IMG/VR virus record: IMGVR_UViG_3300050821_005195
Span: 1 to 44,520 of that record
DNA length: 44,520 nt
From: a virus
Reading direction: 5' to 3' (one strand)
The notes under the pieces were generated by a model. That model had not been told where the DNA came from. It did not search any database and was given only the letters and a program-made list of their open reading frames with translations. Numbering within the stretch: the stretch's first letter is position 1; each line of letters starts with the position of its first letter. This document shows positions 9 through 43,994 of this stretch, in pieces. The position numbers and the translations under genes are program-made.

Positions 9-98
<90 letters not shown>

Positions 99-144: not shown

Positions 145-1041
145 ATGGTTTCCCAAATCGAAGCATACCTCAACAGGTTAGAAGTCAGCGGTGCCACACA
201 CAAAACCCTTTGTGCTTATCGGTATCCGTTGAATTTGTTCTCGAAGTCCTGCCGGAAAGAAATCGCATCCGTGACCGAAGATGATTTGGTGTCTTTCGTC
301 TCGGGTATGCGCCGGTCCAACCTCGCCGACCGCACATGCTTCAACTATTTGAACGTGGTTAAAATCTTCCTTAAAACCCACGGACTCCAGTTCAAGTTGA
401 GCGTGTCCTACGTCGAGCCGGAAGTGGATTCGTACACGAGACGTGAAGTGAAGGCGATGCTCGCCATCGCGGACTACAAGATGGCGCTCGTCATCCGTTT
501 CCTGCTCGGGACGGGCACACGCGAAGGCGAGGCGATGCACGCCGAGTTCGGCGACATAGACTTCGGTCGCAAGTTGCTCCGTGTGCGTCCAAAACCGCAA
601 TGGGGTTGGAAGCCGAAGACCAGCGAATGCCGCCTGATTCCCATCCCCGATTCCTTACTTGAATCCTTGCGGGAACTCAAGCAGGCACGCGAAGAAATCA
701 CGGACTTCACCGTGGACTCCAATGAACTCGTTCCCGTGCCCGTGCACTCAGTGCGTCCGGTCACGAATCTCATTTTCCCGAACGCTGCTGGCGCGCCGGA
801 CGGCCACCTGCTTCGCAAGGTCCAACAAGTGGCGAAACGTGCTGGCGTCGAGAACGCATCCTTGCACCGTTTCCGCCGTAGCTTCGCAACGCTGCACCAT
901 GACTCGGGTGTGAGCGCCCGCACGGTCCAGACTTGGTTGGGTCACAAGGATTTGGCGACGACGATGCGGTACTTAGCGTCAGCCGAACTCGAATCCGAAT
1001 CCACGCGCACGATGGTCAACTCTACGTTTGGAGGGCTGTGA
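145..1041 (+). CDS. int: Tyrosine-family integrase
   Basis: Site-specific recombinase of 298 residues expected to join phage attP to the tRNA-Ser 3' end. An N-terminal SAM-like core-binding domain (about 1-90) precedes the catalytic domain. Catalytic residues can be placed: R126 (GTGTREGEA), K158 between the beta strands, H241-x-x-R244 (LHRFRR), H267 (WLGH) and nucleophile Y276 (TMRYL). The start ATG has a strong ribosome-binding site (GGAGGG, 7 bases upstream). It lies directly downstream of attL and is the first phage gene. Its stop TGA overlaps the ATG of the next gene. In the integrated state its only obvious upstream promoter is that of the tRNA. In circular phage DNA it would be preceded by the promoter at 43909-43937. 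Confidence 0.97.
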   Translation: MVSQIEAYLNRLEVSGATHKTLCAYRYPLNLFSKSCRKEIASVTEDDLVSFVSGMRRSNLADRTCFNYLNVVKIFLKTHGLQFKLSVSYVEPEVDSYTRREVKAMLAIADYKMALVIRFLLGTGTREGEAMHAEFGDIDFGRKLLRVRPKPQWGWKPKTSECRLIPIPDSLLESLRELKQAREEITDFTVDSNELVPVPVHSVRPVTNLIFPNAAGAPDGHLLRKVQQVAKRAGVENASLHRFRRSFATLHHDSGVSARTVQTWLGHKDLATTMRYLASAELESESTRTMVNSTFGGL

Positions 1042-1196
1042 TGGACATCCTTGCCGGAATTTTCATCTTTGTGGTCGTGATGTTGATACTGGTGGGAGCC
1101 AAGAACATGGCGTCCGACGCGGTTAAGTCCGTCGTCGTGCTCGCTACTCTCACCGACAAAGAGAAGCAGGAGTTGCGAGCCAAGCTGTTGAGCTAA
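1041..1196 (+). CDS. Small single-pass membrane protein
   Basis: Encodes 51 residues. ATG 1041 overlaps the integrase stop (TGATG) and has its own GGAGGG site at 1030-1035, which favours it over longer upstream starts in the same frame. Residues about 3-20 form a hydrophobic helix (LAGIFIFVVVMLILVGA), followed by a short charged tail ending in KEKQELRAKLLS. I do not recognise the family. Coupling to int suggests expression with it, perhaps as a modulator or an unrelated small membrane protein. Its stop overlaps the stop of the convergent glycosyltransferase-like gene. Confidence 0.7.
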   Translation: MDILAGIFIFVVVMLILVGAKNMASDAVKSVVVLATLTDKEKQELRAKLLS

Positions 1197-1822
1197 GGTC
1201 GGTGGTAGAACGGGGCAGCCGGGTCGGTGAGCGAGACGGCTGCCCATTCCTTCGGTTCGATTCCCAATCTTTCCACCACACTCGTGGTGATTTCATCCTG
1301 ACAACTAATCATCTCCGAGGACTGGTCTTCCCCCGGTTTCAAGAACGGTGGCCAGAACCGTGGGTAGAAAAACTTCGTCTCGTAAACGGGGTCCAAGAGC
1401 AGATTCGAATCCACGATGGCTTGAGCCGCGTCACGCCGGAATCCTATCGCGGGACCGGCGAGCACACGTTCTCCGTGGTAGTTGTAGCGAAAAGCCGAGA
1501 ACACGGGAGCGTCGGGGAGGTCAGCCTCACGGTTGATGTGAGTGTCCGGGTCCACTTTGACAACCAAGTCGTGGTCACTTGACAACAAGATTTTGAGGAA
1601 TCGTTCCGTCCAACGACCGGCGCTCGACGGCAGCTTGAGTCTCGTGCCAAAAATGTGCTCGACACCGACAGACTTGCAGAACAGGTCGTAGCCCGGGTAG
1701 CCGGTGCCATCCGAGATAGACACGATGCCCGCCTCGGGATACCAGAACTTCAGCGCAGCTATGCACTCGGCGGCAAGCAAGTGGTCTCTATACGTGTTCA
1801 CGCAGAAAAGCAAGGGCGGCAT
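1193..1822 (-). CDS. Glycosyltransferase-like protein (GT-A type)
   Basis: Encodes 209 residues. The N-terminus (residues 1-45: LLFCVNTYRDH, then AALKFWYPEAGIVSISDG) looks like the nucleotide-binding half of a GT-A fold. VKVDPDTH near residue 92 supplies a DxD-type metal/sugar-nucleotide motif. The C-terminal half has GPAIGFRRDAAQAIV and a SCQDE segment that could complete the active site. It is last in the minus-strand operon behind two sigma-like genes. Its ATG lies 35 bases inside the preceding gene, and a TTG three codons later is an alternative start. In phages such enzymes modify host surface glycans or virion components; which applies here is unknown. Its position near attL would suit lysogenic conversion. 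Confidence 0.7.
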   Translation of the reverse strand: MPPLLFCVNTYRDHLLAAECIAALKFWYPEAGIVSISDGTGYPGYDLFCKSVGVEHIFGTRLKLPSSAGRWTERFLKILLSSDHDLVVKVDPDTHINREADLPDAPVFSAFRYNYHGERVLAGPAIGFRRDAAQAIVDSNLLLDPVYETKFFYPRFWPPFLKPGEDQSSEMISCQDEITTSVVERLGIEPKEWAAVSLTDPAAPFYHRP

Positions 1823-2294
1823 CCTTTGACTTCTGGATTTCGGGCACCGACTTCCCGAGGATGTCGGCTACGTCTTGTTCCGAGAGTTCGTCAAGCATGA
1901 GGTAGGAGAGGATTTGTACTTGGTCGGGCGGGAGGTTGGAGAGGAGTCGTTCGGTGTCAATGCGATTCTCGATTTGGGTCGTGACCGAGTTCGGGTCTTC
2001 GATGTCAAAGTTCGGCCCTCCGGCCCCGATGGGGTTGTCACTCGTGAGAAACCGCTGGCGGTAGCGGAACTCTTTCTTGATGGCGTCCCGCATCGCGTTG
2101 TTGATGCAAGTGCGAATAAGCTGTGGCGTGACCCGGTAGCCGTTGTCGAGGGCGCGAAACATGCCAAGAAAGCCTTGTTGAGCCACGTCGTCCTTGATGT
2201 CCGGGGGCAGCGAGAACCGCTCAATCATCGAGATAGCGATGTGGAACACCAGTCGGTGGTATTGCTTGTAGACATCCTTCTGTTGCCGGGTCAT
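1788..2294 (-). CDS. Sigma-70-like factor B (ECF-like)
   Basis: Encodes 168 residues with the layout of a minimal sigma factor. A region-2-like helical segment lies at about 10-55 (YHRLVFHIAISMIERF, then DDVAQQGFLGMFRAL). A region-4-like HTH lies at about 115-165 (LPPDQVQILSYLMLDELS, then QDVADILGKSVPEIQKS). The central linker is short, as in ECF factors. It is translationally coupled to the upstream sigma-like gene by TAATG. Phage sigma factors redirect host RNA polymerase to phage promoters (T4 gp55 and SPO1 gp28 are known cases). The repeated GGCGTTCTATT and TCAGTANTAT words elsewhere in this genome are candidate targets. A regulator with a sigma-like fold but another role is possible. Confidence 0.8.
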   Translation of the reverse strand: MTRQQKDVYKQYHRLVFHIAISMIERFSLPPDIKDDVAQQGFLGMFRALDNGYRVTPQLIRTCINNAMRDAIKKEFRYRQRFLTSDNPIGAGGPNFDIEDPNSVTTQIENRIDTERLLSNLPPDQVQILSYLMLDELSEQDVADILGKSVPEIQKSKDAALAFLREHV

Positions 2295-2959
2295 TAGGCT
2301 TGACTCCGGGCTTCCCGCTTTTCTTTCCGCTTAGCCTTCTCGGTTCTCTCGTAATGACGGCGACTATAAGCACGTTTGGCTTCCTTGGTTTTCGGCCAAC
2401 TGCCGTCTCTGAAAAGACCGTCTATAGGTAGTTCTCTCGACAACCCCAATTTGAGGCGAATCTTGATGACCGCCTTTTGAACTCTTTGGCGATAGCTTTC
2501 TGTACGCGCTCCAAGGTGGTCAGCGGCTTCCTGTATGCTGAAGCCACGCATCAAAGGCTCGAACAAGTAACGGTCTTTGCCCGCAGCCTCCAAGATGATT
2601 TCGGCATCCAGTTTGCGGTTGACGGCAGCCATGTGTTCGGCTGCTCGCCCGTCAGAGATGTAGAGCAGCGCATCGTCTTGAATACCGGGGACGTTCACGC
2701 ACTTCTTGTTTCTGGTCACTAGAACGAGCATCTTGTTCGAGATGGTCGTTCTCACATAGTTCGCGGACCATCGGTTTTCGACGGGAATACAAAACAGTGC
2801 CCAATAGCCAGCGGAGACGAAGTTATCGAAGTCGGATTCGGGTCTGTTCCATCGCTGGCAGAAGTAACCAGCCTGCTTGATGATGAACGCCTTCCAACGC
2901 CGGACGAACTCCTCGTCGGGGATAAGCTGGTTCTTTTCGAGTCGAAATTCTGGTCTCAT
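2294..2959 (-). CDS. Sigma-70-like factor A
   Basis: Encodes 221 residues, with a divergent sigma fold. Residues about 20-75 resemble region 2 (WKAFIIKQAGYFCQRW, SDFDNFVSAGYWALF, NYVRTTISNKMLVLV). Residues about 130-175 resemble region 4 (LFEPLMRGFSIQEAADHLG, then TESYRQRVQKAVIKIRLKLG). A very basic tail follows (RRHYERTEKAKRKEKRE). There is no ribosome-binding site before ATG 2959. A TATTAT box ends five bases before it, so the message may be leaderless. It is the first gene of the sigma A, sigma B, glycosyltransferase operon and is divergent from the small basic gene at 3003. Homology is inferred from pattern only. Confidence 0.7.
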   Translation of the reverse strand: MRPEFRLEKNQLIPDEEFVRRWKAFIIKQAGYFCQRWNRPESDFDNFVSAGYWALFCIPVENRWSANYVRTTISNKMLVLVTRNKKCVNVPGIQDDALLYISDGRAAEHMAAVNRKLDAEIILEAAGKDRYLFEPLMRGFSIQEAADHLGARTESYRQRVQKAVIKIRLKLGLSRELPIDGLFRDGSWPKTKEAKRAYSRRHYERTEKAKRKEKREARSQA

Positions 2960-3002
2960 GTTCTATAATACGGAACCGTAGTCGAAACTTTGGAGGCTAA
3001 CG
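2960..3002. promoter_or_regulatory. Divergent promoter region of sigma A and the small basic gene
   Basis: Only 43 bases separate two divergent start codons. On the + strand GTTCTATAATACGG (2960-2973) contains a consensus -10 box TATAAT (2964-2969) and matches the late-gene word GTTCTATTACGG with two extra bases. On the minus strand the same bases read as TATTAT just before the sigma A start. GGCTAACG at 2995-3002 is repeated at 3005-3012 and overlaps the start of the + gene, so it could be an operator. I see no good -35 box. Confidence 0.6.
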
Positions 3003-3191
3003 ATGGCTAACGCCGTGGAAGTGTTGAGGCAGGAGCGGGAGAAGCTAATGAGGCAGGTCAAGGTTCTCGACGAGGCTATAGTAGTGGTTGGTGGTGCAGC
3101 GAGGCCCGGCAAGAGGCATTTGAGCGCCGAGGCAAGGAAGAAGCTATCCGAGGCGGGAAAACGCCGCTGGAGCGGTCAGAAGAAGAAGTAG
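3003..3191 (+). CDS. Small basic protein, putative DNA-binding regulator
   Basis: Encodes 62 residues and is the only + strand gene between int and attR. An N-terminal heptad-like helix (VEVLRQEREKLMRQVKVLDEA) is followed by a Lys/Arg-rich tail (HLSAEARKKLSEAGKRRW) of a kind seen in many small bacterial and phage proteins that look nucleic-acid binding. A strong GGAGG site sits 7 bases before ATG. It diverges from sigma A and converges with the internal-protein gene, one base separating the stops. A tandem GGCTAACG repeat straddles its start codon. The function is not known; a regulatory role is inferred from context. Confidence 0.65.
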   Translation: MANAVEVLRQEREKLMRQVKVLDEAIVVVGGAARPGKRHLSAEARKKLSEAGKRRWSGQKKK

Positions 3192-19626: not shown

Positions 19627-20919
19627 TTAGTACCCCGAAGGTAGACCGCAGTTTTGGGCGTATGCGCCTGCGCGAACGTTGCGGTTCACGAGGTTCTGAC
19701 CAGTCCAGTAATACCATTGCGAACTGGTTTGGATACCGCCGCTTGCACCGTAACGCGGGAACACGTTCTGGCCCCCCACGTCATAGAGGCTGACCGGCAC
19801 CGTGCTCAAACGGCCCCAATTCTTGAGGCAGAGAGCATCAATGCGGCCCGCCGAGGCGTGCACGGAAACGAACAGCTCACGACCGAGAACTTCGTCGGAG
19901 GGTTCCTTCGTGCCCATGTCAACCGGAGCGCCGGAGTTCTTCACTTCGTTCTGGATGGTCTTCGCAACCTGCAAGTGGAGGTTTTCCACCGCAGCCTGTT
20001 GGTCCAAGCCAGCGTAGAAGATGATGTCCTTCGCAGCCGGGTTCTGGTCACCGAGGGCCACACGGGTCAACTGAACCATGCGGCGGAGAGCCTGAATGGT
20101 GATTGCGTTGCCATTCAAGTTCACGGTCGGCGTGGACAACTTGCCGGGGAAGCTGGAGCGGTTAAGCCCGAGCAACGAGCCGGTGTTGCTGTTCACTTGG
20201 TAGTACTTCAAGCCGAGGAGCGAGGCTCCTGCGGCACCGGAAGCACCGTTGACGACGAGAATGTCGCCTGCCTGTGTTGCTCCGCCCGTGCTCGGTAGAG
20301 CCTGAGACGACCACAACGTCTTGCCGAGGCTGTCCACGGATGAAATCTGGAACGTGCCACGGGTGACGCCGCCAACGTTCGGGAAGACTTGGATAATCTG
20401 CGAGTCTTGGAAGTTGTTGGCGTTGTTGACGGTGATGTTCGAGAACATGGCACCGGAACCGGAACCGCTTGAGGCGGTCACGATGGTGTCGAGAGTTCCC
20501 GAGCCATCACTCTGGTAGAGGGATTCGAGACCCGAGCGGAACTGAGCAAGCGAGGCTTGCATTTGTTCCTTGGCGTAGTCACGAACCGCCTTGCCCTTGG
20601 AGTCGGTTGCGACTTCGGGCAGCTTGGCGATGCTCACAGCTTGGTCGAAGAAGACGATGGAGAGTTGGAGTACCTCGTAGTCGTCGGCTCCGCCAACGCC
20701 CATGTCTGCGTTATCGGCAGACGTTTGGCTAAACTGCGAGCCGTTGGTGACTTGAATCGGGAAGCGGGCGTTACGGGTGCTCACCGAGATGGCATCCGTG
20801 GCTTCGTCAATTCGTCCGTAGAGAGCGTCGTCGCGCTGCAAATACAACGCGACCATCTCATCCACGTGTTCCAACTGCAAAGCAGTTGATTGCACGTTAA
20901 GTGCGGTTTGGTCGGACAT
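19627..20919 (-). CDS. Major capsid protein
   Basis: Encodes 430 residues. The N-arm (ALNVQSTALQLEHVDEMVAL) is followed by HK97-like spine features: RDYAKEQMQASLAQFRSGLE forms the long helix at about 110-135. A Gly/Ser/Asn-rich insertion (about 145-245, GSGSGAMFSNITVNNANNFQ) precedes the second half (ALRRMVQLTRVALGDQNPAA, then DIIFYAGLDQQ). It sits directly behind the scaffold gene with a 174-base leader. A phage GroES gene lies downstream. Position, size and composition make it the only good candidate for the capsid shell. Confidence 0.9.
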   Translation of the reverse strand: MSDQTALNVQSTALQLEHVDEMVALYLQRDDALYGRIDEATDAISVSTRNARFPIQVTNGSQFSQTSADNADMGVGGADDYEVLQLSIVFFDQAVSIAKLPEVATDSKGKAVRDYAKEQMQASLAQFRSGLESLYQSDGSGTLDTIVTASSGSGSGAMFSNITVNNANNFQDSQIIQVFPNVGGVTRGTFQISSVDSLGKTLWSSQALPSTGGATQAGDILVVNGASGAAGASLLGLKYYQVNSNTGSLLGLNRSSFPGKLSTPTVNLNGNAITIQALRRMVQLTRVALGDQNPAAKDIIFYAGLDQQAAVENLHLQVAKTIQNEVKNSGAPVDMGTKEPSDEVLGRELFVSVHASAGRIDALCLKNWGRLSTVPVSLYDVGGQNVFPRYGASGGIQTSSQWYYWTGQNLVNRNVRAGAYAQNCGLPSGY

Positions 20920-22470: not shown

Positions 22471-23094
22471 CTACGAGGTTCCGAATTCTGCTTTTTTCTC
22501 GTGCCCAAAAATAGGCTCGATGCTATAGCCTTCATCCTCGACGTAGACTCCGCAAATGCCTCCCGGAGCCACGACTTCTCCCTGCTCAGGGCGTCCATCC
22601 ACGGTGTTGTTGATGAGGTCCGTGAGGGAGATAACGTCGCTGGTATGAGTGACATACAGGGTGAGGCTTGGGAGGCTTAGCTGGTACTCAAAAAAGTCAC
22701 CTACACGCTGGATAAAGGCATTCAAGGCTTGACCGTTCTCTGGTTCCTCATCGGGATGGTCAATGAAGTGGTCAAGACGAGATTTCAAGTCTTGCCGGTC
22801 CTTGCCGTAGAATTCCGGTCCCATTTGCCACGGAAGTAAGGCTCGGTCTTGACGAATCGCCAAGCCTCCCAAGGCACCGGAGCAGATTTCCGCCGTTTCG
22901 ATGGCTCTCAAGAGAGGCGAGGCGATGATTCGCTCGATTTGGAACTTTTTCAGAAATTGGGCCGCACGATGAGCGTCTAAAACGCCTTCGTCGTTGAGAC
23001 CGGGGTCCAACATCCCTCGAAAAACGTTGGAGTCATTGGCATCCGTGTCTCCGTGACGGAGAACGAGTGCTCGGAGTTCCTTTTTCGTCGCCAT
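22471..23094 (-). CDS. Histidine phosphatase superfamily protein
   Basis: Encodes 207 residues. The phosphoglycerate-mutase-type signature is present: LVLRHGDT near residues 10-17 (catalytic His14), IASPLLRAIETAEI (second Arg region, about 58-71) and VTHTSDV (second His, about 148). Substrate unknown. Members of this fold occur beside portal genes of several tailed phages. It lies between portal and scaffold, 2 bases from the portal stop. It may act on nucleotides or a small phosphorylated metabolite, or be a structural exaptation; both key His residues are kept, so activity is likely. Confidence 0.88.
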   Translation of the reverse strand: MATKKELRALVLRHGDTDANDSNVFRGMLDPGLNDEGVLDAHRAAQFLKKFQIERIIASPLLRAIETAEICSGALGGLAIRQDRALLPWQMGPEFYGKDRQDLKSRLDHFIDHPDEEPENGQALNAFIQRVGDFFEYQLSLPSLTLYVTHTSDVISLTDLINNTVDGRPEQGEVVAPGGICGVYVEDEGYSIEPIFGHEKKAEFGTS

Positions 23095-38847: not shown

Positions 38848-39122
38848 TATTCTTCAGGGTCAATGATTCTGTCGAGTTCGGAATCGAGTTGTTCCCGGGC
38901 GAGGAGTTCGGCGGCGTCTTGAAGGCTGATGTGGAACCAAACCTTGCCATCGTGGGTGACTTCGATGCGGGTATCCGGGGTCACGGATAGGGGTCCAAGT
39001 ATCGGGTCTTTGACCATGAGACGGCGTACCTCGACTGGTATCTGAACCACTTGGGGAATGTATTGGGTTTCCCGAAGCATCATCACGGGAGCCTCGGAGC
39101 CTTCGACACGGAGTCTAAGCAT
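38847..39122 (-). CDS. Hypothetical beta-rich protein
   Basis: Encodes 91 residues from ATG 39122, overlapping the lysozyme stop by 8 bases; longer starts lie inside the lysozyme frame. Short strands (MLRETQYIPQVVQIPVEVRR, then TRIEVTHDGKVWFHIS) and a C-terminal acidic helix (LAREQLDSELDRIIDPEE). Its position directly after the lysozyme could hint at a lysis role, but nothing in the sequence shows it. Confidence 0.55.
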   Translation of the reverse strand: MLRLRVEGSEAPVMMLRETQYIPQVVQIPVEVRRLMVKDPILGPLSVTPDTRIEVTHDGKVWFHISLQDAAELLAREQLDSELDRIIDPEE

Positions 39123-39540
39123 TGAACTCCTCTTGCTCGGCGACGCGACGGCGGAGTAGTCCAGCCACGACTTGGCCTCCAGCGTGGTCCCATTTTTGGA
39201 ATTCGTTCGCGGCATTGGCGAAGTCGCCTTGATTCACGAGCGCCAATAGCTGGCTATGCTCGAACGAGCCGGAGCCTAAATTGAACGTGAAATCTACCAA
39301 GGCATCGAACTCGTTTTGTGTCAACGGAACCTTGACCATGGCGTCCACGACTCGGGTCGCCCATTGAATGTCCTCTTGGAGCCAAGCCTCGGCTTGGGAC
39401 TGAGTGCAAGTGTCACCCGGCTGGACGCCGAGCGTGTGCCCGTAACCTATCGTCCAGCGACCAACTTGGTCTTGGTAAGCGGCGAGGCGGACGCCCTCGA
39501 ATTGTTCGGTTAGTTGGAGACCTGTGCGGGAATAGTTCAT
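39115..39540 (-). CDS. Endolysin, GH24 lysozyme
   Basis: Encodes 141 residues, phage muramidase. The catalytic triad typical of the family is present: E15 (QFEG), D24 (AYQDQVG) and T30 (WTIGYGHT). ALVDFTFNLGSGSF (about 79-92) is the second conserved block, and GLLRRRVAEQEEF ends the domain. No signal peptide or membrane helix, so it should accumulate in the cytoplasm and need a holin. Coupled by ATGA to the KTSC gene before it. Confidence 0.95.
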   Translation of the reverse strand: MNYSRTGLQLTEQFEGVRLAAYQDQVGRWTIGYGHTLGVQPGDTCTQSQAEAWLQEDIQWATRVVDAMVKVPLTQNEFDALVDFTFNLGSGSFEHSQLLALVNQGDFANAANEFQKWDHAGGQVVAGLLRRRVAEQEEFNA

Positions 39541-39749
39541 CTGATTTTGATTCCTTGGTAGTGGGGGCGAATATAGTGGTTGAAGTAGGAACCCTTAGAG
39601 GCGGCGAGCAAGAGACCGTGGTAAGCCAAGGAAGGCACGCGAATGTACTGGTAGGCGGTGCCATCGGCGAACTCGACGACGAGCACACGCGAAGGCTCGT
39701 CGTAGCTTGCCGAGGTCATGCTTTTGGAGTTGAAGGCTTGGCGTTCCAT
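39537..39749 (-). CDS. KTSC-domain protein
   Basis: Encodes 70 residues, almost exactly one KTSC domain: NSKSMTSASYDEPSRVLVVE, then GTAYQYIRVP, then AASKGSYFNHYIRPHY. ATG 39749 directly follows the late-type word B5 with no ribosome-binding site, so the message may be leaderless. A longer upstream start would place the word inside the coding region. The role of KTSC domains is unclear; they occur fused to synthetases and alone in phages. Confidence 0.8.
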   Translation of the reverse strand: MERQAFNSKSMTSASYDEPSRVLVVEFADGTAYQYIRVPSLAYHGLLLAASKGSYFNHYIRPHYQGIKIR

Positions 39750-39764
39750 GCACAATAGAACGCC
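39749..39764 (-). promoter_or_regulatory. Late-type promoter-like word, copy B5
   Basis: Minus-strand GGCGTTCTATTGTGCA, touching the ATG of the KTSC gene (the last bases form its start). A GC-rich 8-bp hairpin (39769-39789) lies immediately upstream. It would drive the KTSC and lysozyme genes. Confidence 0.6.
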
Positions 39765-39768
39765 GAGA

Positions 39769-39789
39769 GGGGCGGAGGACTTCCGCCCC
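39769..39789 (-). terminator. GC-rich hairpin before the lysis genes
   Basis: GGGGCGGA (39769-39776) pairs with TCCGCCCC (39782-39789) around a 5-base loop. On the minus strand it is followed by TCTCGGCGTTCTATT, only mildly U-rich. It probably ends incoming transcription just before promoter-like copy B5. Confidence 0.55.
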
Positions 39790-39844
39790 AACGGTCTAAT
39801 CACCAATGAAGTCAGTTTTCCACGACTGAATCGTTAGCTTTGAG

Positions 39845-41760: not shown

Positions 41761-42909
41761 TTACTTCGCGCCTTCCGCCGCCTTGCGTAGCGTCAAGAAG
41801 GCTTCCTTCAAGGTGTGGCTGACCGCGCTCTCCGGCTCGTGTAGAACCAGCTTTTGGTACTCGTCGAGGAAGTCCGTCCGCAAGCGATGGAAGAGATGCA
41901 GGAAGTGACCGATGAACCCCAAGCATCCGAGAATCGCTATCTCGACACCACCCAAGTCCTCGTAGAGACTCACGGCGTACTCCCACACGTCGGGGTCAAT
42001 CTTGTCCGTGGTGATGAACACGTAGTGCTGAATCGTCTTCTTGTGGACCTTAATCTTCTCGATGGCGTTGTTGATGTCGCCCTTCGAGACGGCCTTCATC
42101 TTCATCTCGTAGGCGGTCACCACGTCGTCGTCGCCGACCAACGTGATTTCCAAGTCACCAGCGGCTCCGGTCTGCTTGTCGGCGGCGTTGTGTGAGTGCA
42201 CGTGCAAGACTCGCTCCCCCAAACGCTCTTGGGCAGCGTTGTAAGCTGCGGCAACGATGAGCACCGGCAGCCGTGCGGAGTTCTTGCAATCAAGGTGCTG
42301 GTGGAGAAGCCTCACAATGTCTTCCGCTGAGAGCGGTAGCTTATCCGTGGTACGTTTCAAATCCTTGAGCAGATTCTTGATGGATATGTCCCGCTTGTCC
42401 CGCTCCAGAATGAGGAGCCTCATGGTCTCATCCATGACGTTCTGCGCCGAGACCCGGTTCTTCTGGATGTCGTCGAATAGTTGGAGCACGGCCTCGTACA
42501 TTTCGGCTGGACGGCCTTCTAATTCCACGTCGGTGGTGAGCACGATGTTCTTCGTGCGGAAGCCCGGAGTCAGGAAAGCGGTCGTGGAATTGATTGGCAA
42601 CTCGTAAGGCTTGCTCTTCAAAGCCTCGACATAGCGTTCGTCGTATAGCCGACCCGAGTAATTGTCTTTGCCCGCGTCGCCGGTGATGTCGGTGTAAGGC
42701 TTCCGAATGTCTAACTTGGGGTTGTCAATCTTTGCGAGGGAGCAAGCGAGGAGCGCACGGACTCCAGCACGATTCTTGAGGCAGAGTGCTACGGTCTCGA
42801 TGCGTTTCAGGATTTTAGCGTCGGTAACGAATGGCTTCGTGAGTTGTTTCAGTGCTCGGGTGTAGGAGTCATTCAGAATCTTTGAAGAGCCATCCATTGC
42901 CGTTGCCAT
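41761..42909 (-). CDS. Putative type II restriction endonuclease (SacI-family-like)
   Basis: Encodes 382 residues. A PD-(D/E)xK-like core is visible: GDLEITLVG (251-259, Asp252) and AYEMKMK (266-272, Glu268 and Lys270). The rest is helical, with PYTDITGDAGKDNYSGRLYD (about 71-90) and LSAEDIVRLLHQHL (193-206). Its order of elements recalls proteins annotated as SacI-family endonucleases. It overlaps the end of the methyltransferase gene by 41 bases, the arrangement of a type II system with the methyltransferase first. ATG 42897 is an alternative start. Recognition sequence unknown. Confidence 0.72.
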   Translation of the reverse strand: MATAMDGSSKILNDSYTRALKQLTKPFVTDAKILKRIETVALCLKNRAGVRALLACSLAKIDNPKLDIRKPYTDITGDAGKDNYSGRLYDERYVEALKSKPYELPINSTTAFLTPGFRTKNIVLTTDVELEGRPAEMYEAVLQLFDDIQKNRVSAQNVMDETMRLLILERDKRDISIKNLLKDLKRTTDKLPLSAEDIVRLLHQHLDCKNSARLPVLIVAAAYNAAQERLGERVLHVHSHNAADKQTGAAGDLEITLVGDDDVVTAYEMKMKAVSKGDINNAIEKIKVHKKTIQHYVFITTDKIDPDVWEYAVSLYEDLGGVEIAILGCLGFIGHFLHLFHRLRTDFLDEYQKLVLHEPESAVSHTLKEAFLTLRKAAEGAK

Positions 42910-43792
42910 TCGACTTTACCGCCTTCGTCGGGTCGTAGTTAGTCCACAGGACTTCAACCCGCTTCCCCTTGGTTGCGTGATTCGTCTTCTCGGGGCTGAC
43001 GGTCTTCCACCAGTACTTAGCCGGGTACAACCTATCCATAAGGTCGCATTGGTAGTTTGAGATGGCAACCATGCCACGGCAAGCATTTAATACTTTTGCG
43101 AGGCGGCGATGTTGCTCATCAGTCATCTCGTGCCCGTAGGCTTTGGAGTCGCCTCGGGTCTCGTGGACGTATGGAGGGTCACAATAGAACAAAGTTGTCG
43201 GTGAGTCGTATAGCTCGATGACATCCTCGGCGGGACGGTTCTCAATCTGGACACGGAGCAGCCTCAGTGCAATTTTGGGGAGTGCTTCGACGCCGCCAAG
43301 CCAACGGCTAATGACACCGCTCATCCCGGCTCGGCTCGTGTCCTTGCAATTCGCCCATCGTCCGACCGATGCGGTCTGAGCCAGTCCCGTCCTGACCTGT
43401 CGTGCACGGATGTAGAACCGACGAGCACGCTCGAATGGGGAGCAAGTGGGGTCGAGTTTGCAGGCGAGCGCGAACTCCTCACGAGAGAATGGCGTCAAGC
43501 CAATGGCTTCGACAAGTTTTTCTTTCTCGTCGCGGAGCACACGGAAGAAGTTGCAAACCTCGCCGTCCAAATCGTTGTAGCTCTCGATAGCGGCTGGTTT
43601 GCGATTGAGAAGGACGGCACCCGAACCCGAGAACGGCTCGCAGTAGTGATGGCAATGCGGGAGCAAGGGGAGCAGCCAATCGAGATGGGAGAATTTACCG
43701 CCGTACCAACCGAAGGGAATGAGTTTCTTTGTGGTGAGAGAAGAGACAGCGGGCGGTGTTCCTTTTCTCAGAGCCGGTGTTGCCGATGCCAT
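42869..43792 (-). CDS. DNA adenine N6-methyltransferase (Dam-like, D12 class)
   Basis: Encodes 307 residues. Motif X is IPFGWYGGKFSHLDWLL (25-41), the AdoMet-binding motif I is CEPFSGSGAV (51-60), and catalytic motif IV is FYCDPPYV (202-209). The order X, I, target region, IV is that of class alpha (Dam/DpnM) enzymes. GAGG lies 6 bases before ATG 43792. First gene of the rightmost operon and placed next to attR; the overlapping downstream gene looks like a partner endonuclease. It could alternatively protect phage DNA as an orphan enzyme. Confidence 0.94.
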   Translation of the reverse strand: MASATPALRKGTPPAVSSLTTKKLIPFGWYGGKFSHLDWLLPLLPHCHHYCEPFSGSGAVLLNRKPAAIESYNDLDGEVCNFFRVLRDEKEKLVEAIGLTPFSREEFALACKLDPTCSPFERARRFYIRARQVRTGLAQTASVGRWANCKDTSRAGMSGVISRWLGGVEALPKIALRLLRVQIENRPAEDVIELYDSPTTLFYCDPPYVHETRGDSKAYGHEMTDEQHRRLAKVLNACRGMVAISNYQCDLMDRLYPAKYWWKTVSPEKTNHATKGKRVEVLWTNYDPTKAVKSNGNGNGWLFKDSE

Positions 43793-43968: not shown

Positions 43969-43994
43969 GGGTTCGAATCCCACCCTCTCCGCCA
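43969..43994 (+). other. attR core (26-bp tRNA fragment)
   Basis: Exact copy of bases 73-98. Only the 3' part of the tRNA is present, so this is not a functional tRNA gene. Marks the right end of the prophage. Confidence 0.93.

Follow-up and report, generated by a model that had tools for sequence, protein, structure and literature searches.

Two adjacent sigma-70-like genes in one temperate phage raise the question of whether they encode separate factors or partners that share the work of one. Such a locus is found in the IMG/VR virus record IMGVR_UViG_3300050821_005195, whose 44,520 bases constitute the window analyzed here. In short, the pair is real, the assignment of the second gene (B) as a sigma factor is secure, that of the first (A) is probable, and a partnership between the two is plausible.

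Prophage setting and position of the gene pair

The window is an integrated prophage, as judged from its att repeats, a tRNA-Ser gene and an integrase. The tRNA-Ser (cga; 9-98) ends in a 26-nt sequence (attL, 73-98, plus strand) that is repeated exactly at the far end (attR, 43969-43994, plus strand), and just inside the attL repeat lies a gene for a tyrosine integrase (145-1041, plus strand; Pfam Phage_integrase, 1.4e-21; phrog_1). Integrase and repeats bear out a preliminary description of the element as a temperate phage. The tRNA-Ser is 98-100% identical to its counterpart in genomes of soil Acidobacteria, although one of the records it matches bears the label Betaproteobacteria. Judged by this sequence, the host is a soil acidobacterium.

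Apart from the integrase gene, almost every gene of the prophage is carried on the minus strand. The final minus-strand trio ahead of the integrase consists of gene A (221 aa, 2959 to 2294), gene B (168 aa, 2294 to 1788) and a glycosyltransferase-like ORF (1822 to 1193). Coordinates, strand and coupling of the two adjacent genes at 1788-2959 had been described correctly: the stop codon of A and the start codon of B together form TAATG, and a GGAG precedes the ATG of B by about 9 nt. An in-frame TAG immediately precedes the ATG of gene A, and the GC content of this gene by codon position (0.55/0.41/0.62) is like that of other phage genes. The glycosyltransferase-like ORF (209 aa; 1193-1822, minus strand) overlaps B by 35 nt and contains a DxD-type motif, KVDPDTHI, read by eye; family (Pfam, PHROGs, NCBIfam), PDB and phage searches returned no match for it. 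This ORF probably completes the operon as its third gene.

Divergent from gene A runs a small ORF of 62 aa (3003-3191, plus strand) with a coiled-coil-like start and a basic SAEARKKLSEAGKRRW tail, which we take to resemble NUMOD3-like DNA-binding motifs. Family and phage searches with this ORF gave nothing significant; a role as regulator of the sigma pair or its operon is possible. The putative control region between A and the 62-aa ORF (2942-2980) comprises a promoter-like TCGAAA-16-TATAAT (2942-2969, plus strand) and, adjoining it, a perfect 12-bp dyad TACGGAACCGTA (2969-2980). The promoter-like site is suggestive at best, since the count of such promoters is no higher than the shuffled expectation; together with the dyad it could be a control site.

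Gene B encodes an ECF-like sigma factor

The product of gene B (1788-2294, minus strand) passes the cut-off of TIGR02937 (NCBIfam sigma70-ECF) with 3e-14 over residues 6-167. It matches Pfam Sigma70_r2 (PF04542) with 1.4e-5, above the gathering threshold, Pfam Sigma70_r4_2 (PF08281) with 1.3e-5, slightly below the cut-off, and the PHROG sigma family phrog_1740 with 1.7e-14; the best matches of a phmmer search against the PDB are sigma-E and sigma-H. Region 2 (residues 9-75; 2070-2270, minus strand), delimited by PF04542 and by alignments, carries D36, Q39 and Q40 at the core-binding triad. Region 4 (residues 115-154; 1833-1952, minus strand), delimited by PF08281, contains the recognition helix PEIQKSKDAALAFLRE with a net charge of 0. 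The order of region 2 and region 4, the absence of region 3 and the length of 168 aa correspond to the ECF/group IV plan (about 160-200 aa). Searched against 399 acidobacterial genomes, B recovers ordinary sigma factors of the hosts, with approximately 25% identity. By sequence, B is thus securely assigned as a two-domain, ECF-like protein of the sigma-70 family.

None of the four basic positions of the recognition helix is basic in B (Q, S, A and L), which weakens a claim to -35 recognition and leaves the family assignment unaffected; the helix still has two lysines, K155 and K157. No neighboring gene (A, the glycosyltransferase-like ORF, the 62-aa ORF) matches an anti-sigma family in Pfam, PHROGs or NCBIfam. 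We note that a basic -35 recognition helix is a functional feature and is not obligatory for membership in the sigma-70 family; an adjoining anti-sigma gene is typical, and likewise not obligatory.

Gene A is probably a far-diverged relative

The product of gene A (2294-2959, minus strand) has no family match in Pfam, PHROGs or NCBIfam, and its sole match by sequence in the PDB is the ECF sigma factor SigL (residues 72-171, E 0.42). A region-4-like helix-turn-helix (residues 136-171; 2447-2554, minus strand) has a basic recognition helix (R157, R159 and K162; net charge +4). Compared with a profile of 80 host sigma proteins, this segment scores 36.1 in hhalign (E 2.4e-5 for a single comparison), against 29.9 for the best of 150 shuffles and 23.3 for the best of 246 other ORFs; HMMER with host sigma profiles scores A only weakly. 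By profile comparison, region 4 of A is therefore sigma-like beyond shuffled and unrelated controls.

Sequence support for a region-2-like helical bundle (residues 6-84; 2708-2944, minus strand; N46, S49 and A50 at the triad positions) is marginal. Of 5000 shuffles, 45 reach the Smith-Waterman score between A and B, comparison of the profiles detects nothing, and a BLASTP E-value of 0.001 between the two proteins became weaker once tested by shuffling; the alignment of this region is weak, yet it is the same in three alignments. The claim that both genes possess segments like regions 2 and 4 consequently stands for both regions of B and for region 4 of A, and is marginal by sequence for region 2 of A. 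The protein ends in a basic helix (residues 186-221; 2297-2404, minus strand) with 14 K/R and 5 D/E in 36 residues, a helix that B lacks. The searches returned no close relatives of A, so that conservation supports none of its residues. Taken together, A is probably a far-diverged sigma-70-like protein.

Structure prediction, proposed earlier as a check, gave a sigma2/sigma4 fold for A only when steered. From the single sequence, AlphaFold yielded a poor model (pLDDT 43), and a structural search with this model finds no sigma factor, so that the evidence for the fold depends on the sigma sequences supplied. With an alignment of 12 sigma sequences, the model reaches a pLDDT of 74 and a pTM of 0.36; since it is steered by these rows, it indicates compatibility with a sigma fold and is no proof of one. 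The top Foldseek matches of the steered model are sigma factors, and a PhyR-NepR structure appears at rank 41. Residues 6-84 superimpose on sigma2 of FliA (VIA-align Z 8.3, rmsd 2.6 A, 75 residues) and residues 114-173 on sigma4 (Z 7.0, 2.8 A), Z values near 7-8 being also common for helical bundles in general. The basic C-terminus is modelled with a helix at residues 192-220 (pLDDT about 75-95).

Complementary residue loss in A and B

The two proteins differ in which of the functional surfaces they appear to have kept, as a comparison with 80 host sigma proteins (strong profile hits) illustrates. Of the host sigmas, 79 retain two or three positions of the region-2.2 triad (D, Q and an E-type residue), a single protein retains one, and none lacks all three. 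B retains all three (D36, Q39 and Q40, allowing Q for E), and A none (N46, S49, A50). Conversely, no host sigma has zero basic residues at the four recognition-helix positions; B has none and A has three, the charge of the helix being 0 in B and +4 in A, with a minimum of +2 among the host sigmas. Neither full loss, of the triad or of the basic helix residues, occurs in any of the 80 proteins, a contrast that is exaggerated because the host sigmas were chosen as strong profile hits and are canonical.

The wear on A and B looks complementary and, as read from their residues, suggests a shared job. The proposal of a split factor, in which one protein supplies core binding and the other DNA binding, gains some indirect support from this pattern (B: triad 3/3, helix 0/4; A: triad 0/3, helix 3/4), with its portion on the triad of A depending on the weak region-2 alignment. 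Moreover, the absence of the triad in A is no proof of lost binding, since gp55 of T4 has its own acidic residues with which it contacts the clamp (PMC7892883).

Distribution in related phages and hosts

A search of IMG/VR returned no relatives of A or B. When 50,697 phage records were searched by tblastn, A matched none of them at E 1, and B matched only weakly, in Vibrio phages and one other phage. Among acidobacterial genomes (399 at class level, 95 at order level), A has nothing beyond weak region-4 matches. At L026 (1507-2139) and L027 (3-500), the gene for a host region-4 sigma-like protein, 28% identical to residues 93-180 of A, directly precedes a membrane-protein gene, perhaps for an anti-sigma factor.

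Related phages were identified via terminase and capsid profiles. The structural genes, many of them syntenic with those of two IMG/VR phages, mostly show 30-50% identity. The profile of the capsid-like protein (19627-20919; loci L072-L146) finds 55 IMG/VR viral loci and 54 of the 399 host-class genomes, and this protein marks a widespread prophage family, in which A and B would occupy an optional slot. Over 45 related phage records, some of them fragments, no sigma factor passes the cut-off of TIGR02937 and only partial region-4 matches occur, at least one of which is a small LuxR-type helix-turn-helix ORF; this family model would miss proteins that have diverged to the extent of A. A itself has no match in the 49 related records searched. 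Two partial region-4 matches in G443 were considered as a second sigma pair and rejected, as these partial matches include a LuxR-type helix-turn-helix and A gave none there. Searches with the integrase and the glycosyltransferase-like ORF revealed no copy of the cassette elsewhere. Given that the pair is undetected in the 45 related records, the integrase end seems to hold an accessory cassette made up of A, B and the glycosyltransferase-like ORF. This end is a common place of lysogenic-conversion genes, and the accessory position is compatible with lysogenic-conversion sigma factors of the Bcp25/26 type.

Comparison with known systems

The pair had been likened to gp33/gp34 of SPO1, where gp33 is the partner of gp34. 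This analogy is, as far as the searches show, functional only: both are phage gene pairs for transcription, SPO1 is unlike the present phage a lytic Bacillus phage, and tblastn against the 50,697 phage records linked neither A nor B to it by sequence, so that membership of A and B in the gp33/gp34 group was dropped for lack of a sequence link. SPO1 gp34 is a late sigma factor (PMC9429907). Bacillus phage Bcp1, a lysogen-forming phage, encodes two sigma factors, Bcp25 and Bcp26 (bcp25,26), at one locus, and these reprogram its host (PMC2716549). A and B likewise are two sigma-type genes at one locus of a lysogenizing phage; Bcp25/Bcp26, however, resemble the sporulation factors sigma-F/G, whereas the present pair is ECF-like, with A matching no family. 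Tandem phage sigma genes are thus already known, and A/B is a real, divergent variant of them.

In T4, a sigma factor is split into gp55, with homology to region 2 only, and gp33, which is without sequence similarity to sigma (PMC2988020, PMC7892883). The proposed division, in which one protein docks on the clamp and the other replaces sigma region 4, would be alike; unlike the T4 proteins, B spans both regions and A at least region 4, and no sequence relation was found. SigO/RsoA is also a split sigma factor (PMC8103513), encoded like A and B in one operon, with sigma4 and sigma2 functions on two proteins as is proposed here. The domains of SigO/RsoA are physically split, whereas B carries both, so that only the loss of residues would separate the functions of A and B. 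Xpf of the PBSX prophage, a group IV sigma-like protein with sigma2 and sigma4 (PMC10141391), is also prophage-encoded and sigma-like, but is a single gene, in contrast to the pair in an accessory slot described here. Genetically, A and B resemble Bcp25/26; in mechanism they may resemble T4 gp55/gp33 and SigO/RsoA, judging solely by the pattern of residues.

Proposed function and alternative explanations

Tentatively, and at somewhat less than an even chance, we consider A and B to be linked sigma-70-family partners on the host RNA polymerase, encoded in an accessory operon of an acidobacterial prophage. Region 2 of B would dock on the polymerase clamp and read the -10 element, as is expected from its family, and the part of A that appears intact is the region-4 helix-turn-helix with the basic tail. 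B would thus give core binding and A the upstream DNA contacts seemingly lost from the recognition helix of B, the two probably activating the operon that encodes them as well as some genes of the host or the phage. A stricter version, in which one job has been divided between two full-length relatives by complementary decay and the proteins are active only together, is in our view unlikely. B would then be the half that binds the clamp, its DNA-reading helix being blunted, and A the DNA-reading half that lost its clamp surface and acquired a new basic tail. Such a pair would stand midway from an ordinary sigma factor to the physically split SigO/RsoA or T4 gp55/gp33.

Three other explanations were weighed. 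It is somewhat unlikely that A and B act independently of one another, as sigma factors with separate core binding and promoters that are used sequentially or in parallel: each is modelled or matched as a two-domain sigma protein and multi-sigma phages exist, SP10 encoding three (PMC9429907), yet neither the recognition helix of B, with no basic residue at the four positions, nor the missing triad of A is expected of a stand-alone factor, and the one-base coupling favors joint production. That A is an ordinary helix-turn-helix DNA-binding protein without a true sigma region 2, leaving B as the sole sigma factor, we regard as quite unlikely. The insignificance of region 2 by sequence and the single-sequence model agree with it, whereas the only PDB sequence match of A is an ECF sigma factor (SigL, albeit with E 0.42), the region-2 features are found in the correct order and spacing ahead of region 4, and residues 6-84 fall on sigma2 in the steered model. 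Finally, A might regulate B by mimicking a sigma factor and so titrating either B or an anti-sigma factor, similar to the sigma-like domain of PhyR. The lack of the triad, the absence of a recognized anti-sigma gene beside B and the PhyR-NepR structure among the model matches fit such a role; a protein-only mimic would have no need for a basic recognition helix and a basic tail, and we consider this improbable.

Should A and B indeed work jointly, as we tentatively prefer, they would show a route to split sigmas that passes through two full relatives first, followed by complementary surface loss, and would also exemplify phage sigma factors in Acidobacteriota, a phylum that is abundant in soil and has received little study with respect to its phages. 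Should they be two ordinary sigma factors, this would be one further phage with several sigma genes.

Other genes of the prophage

Outside the integrase end, several further genes were annotated. A likely restriction-modification pair occupies the attR end (41761-43792), where a DNA methyltransferase gene (phrog_56, 3.8e-66) is located beside a gene resembling those of SacI-type restriction endonucleases (Pfam RE_SacI, 5e-4, above cut-off). A gene of the histidine-phosphatase superfamily (22471-23094; Pfam His_Phos_1, 5.9e-25) lies within the structural operon between genes for proteins of 811 aa and 438 aa, and at 39115-39806 a phage lysozyme gene (Pfam, 2.3e-48) adjoins that of a KTSC-domain protein (3.5e-18).
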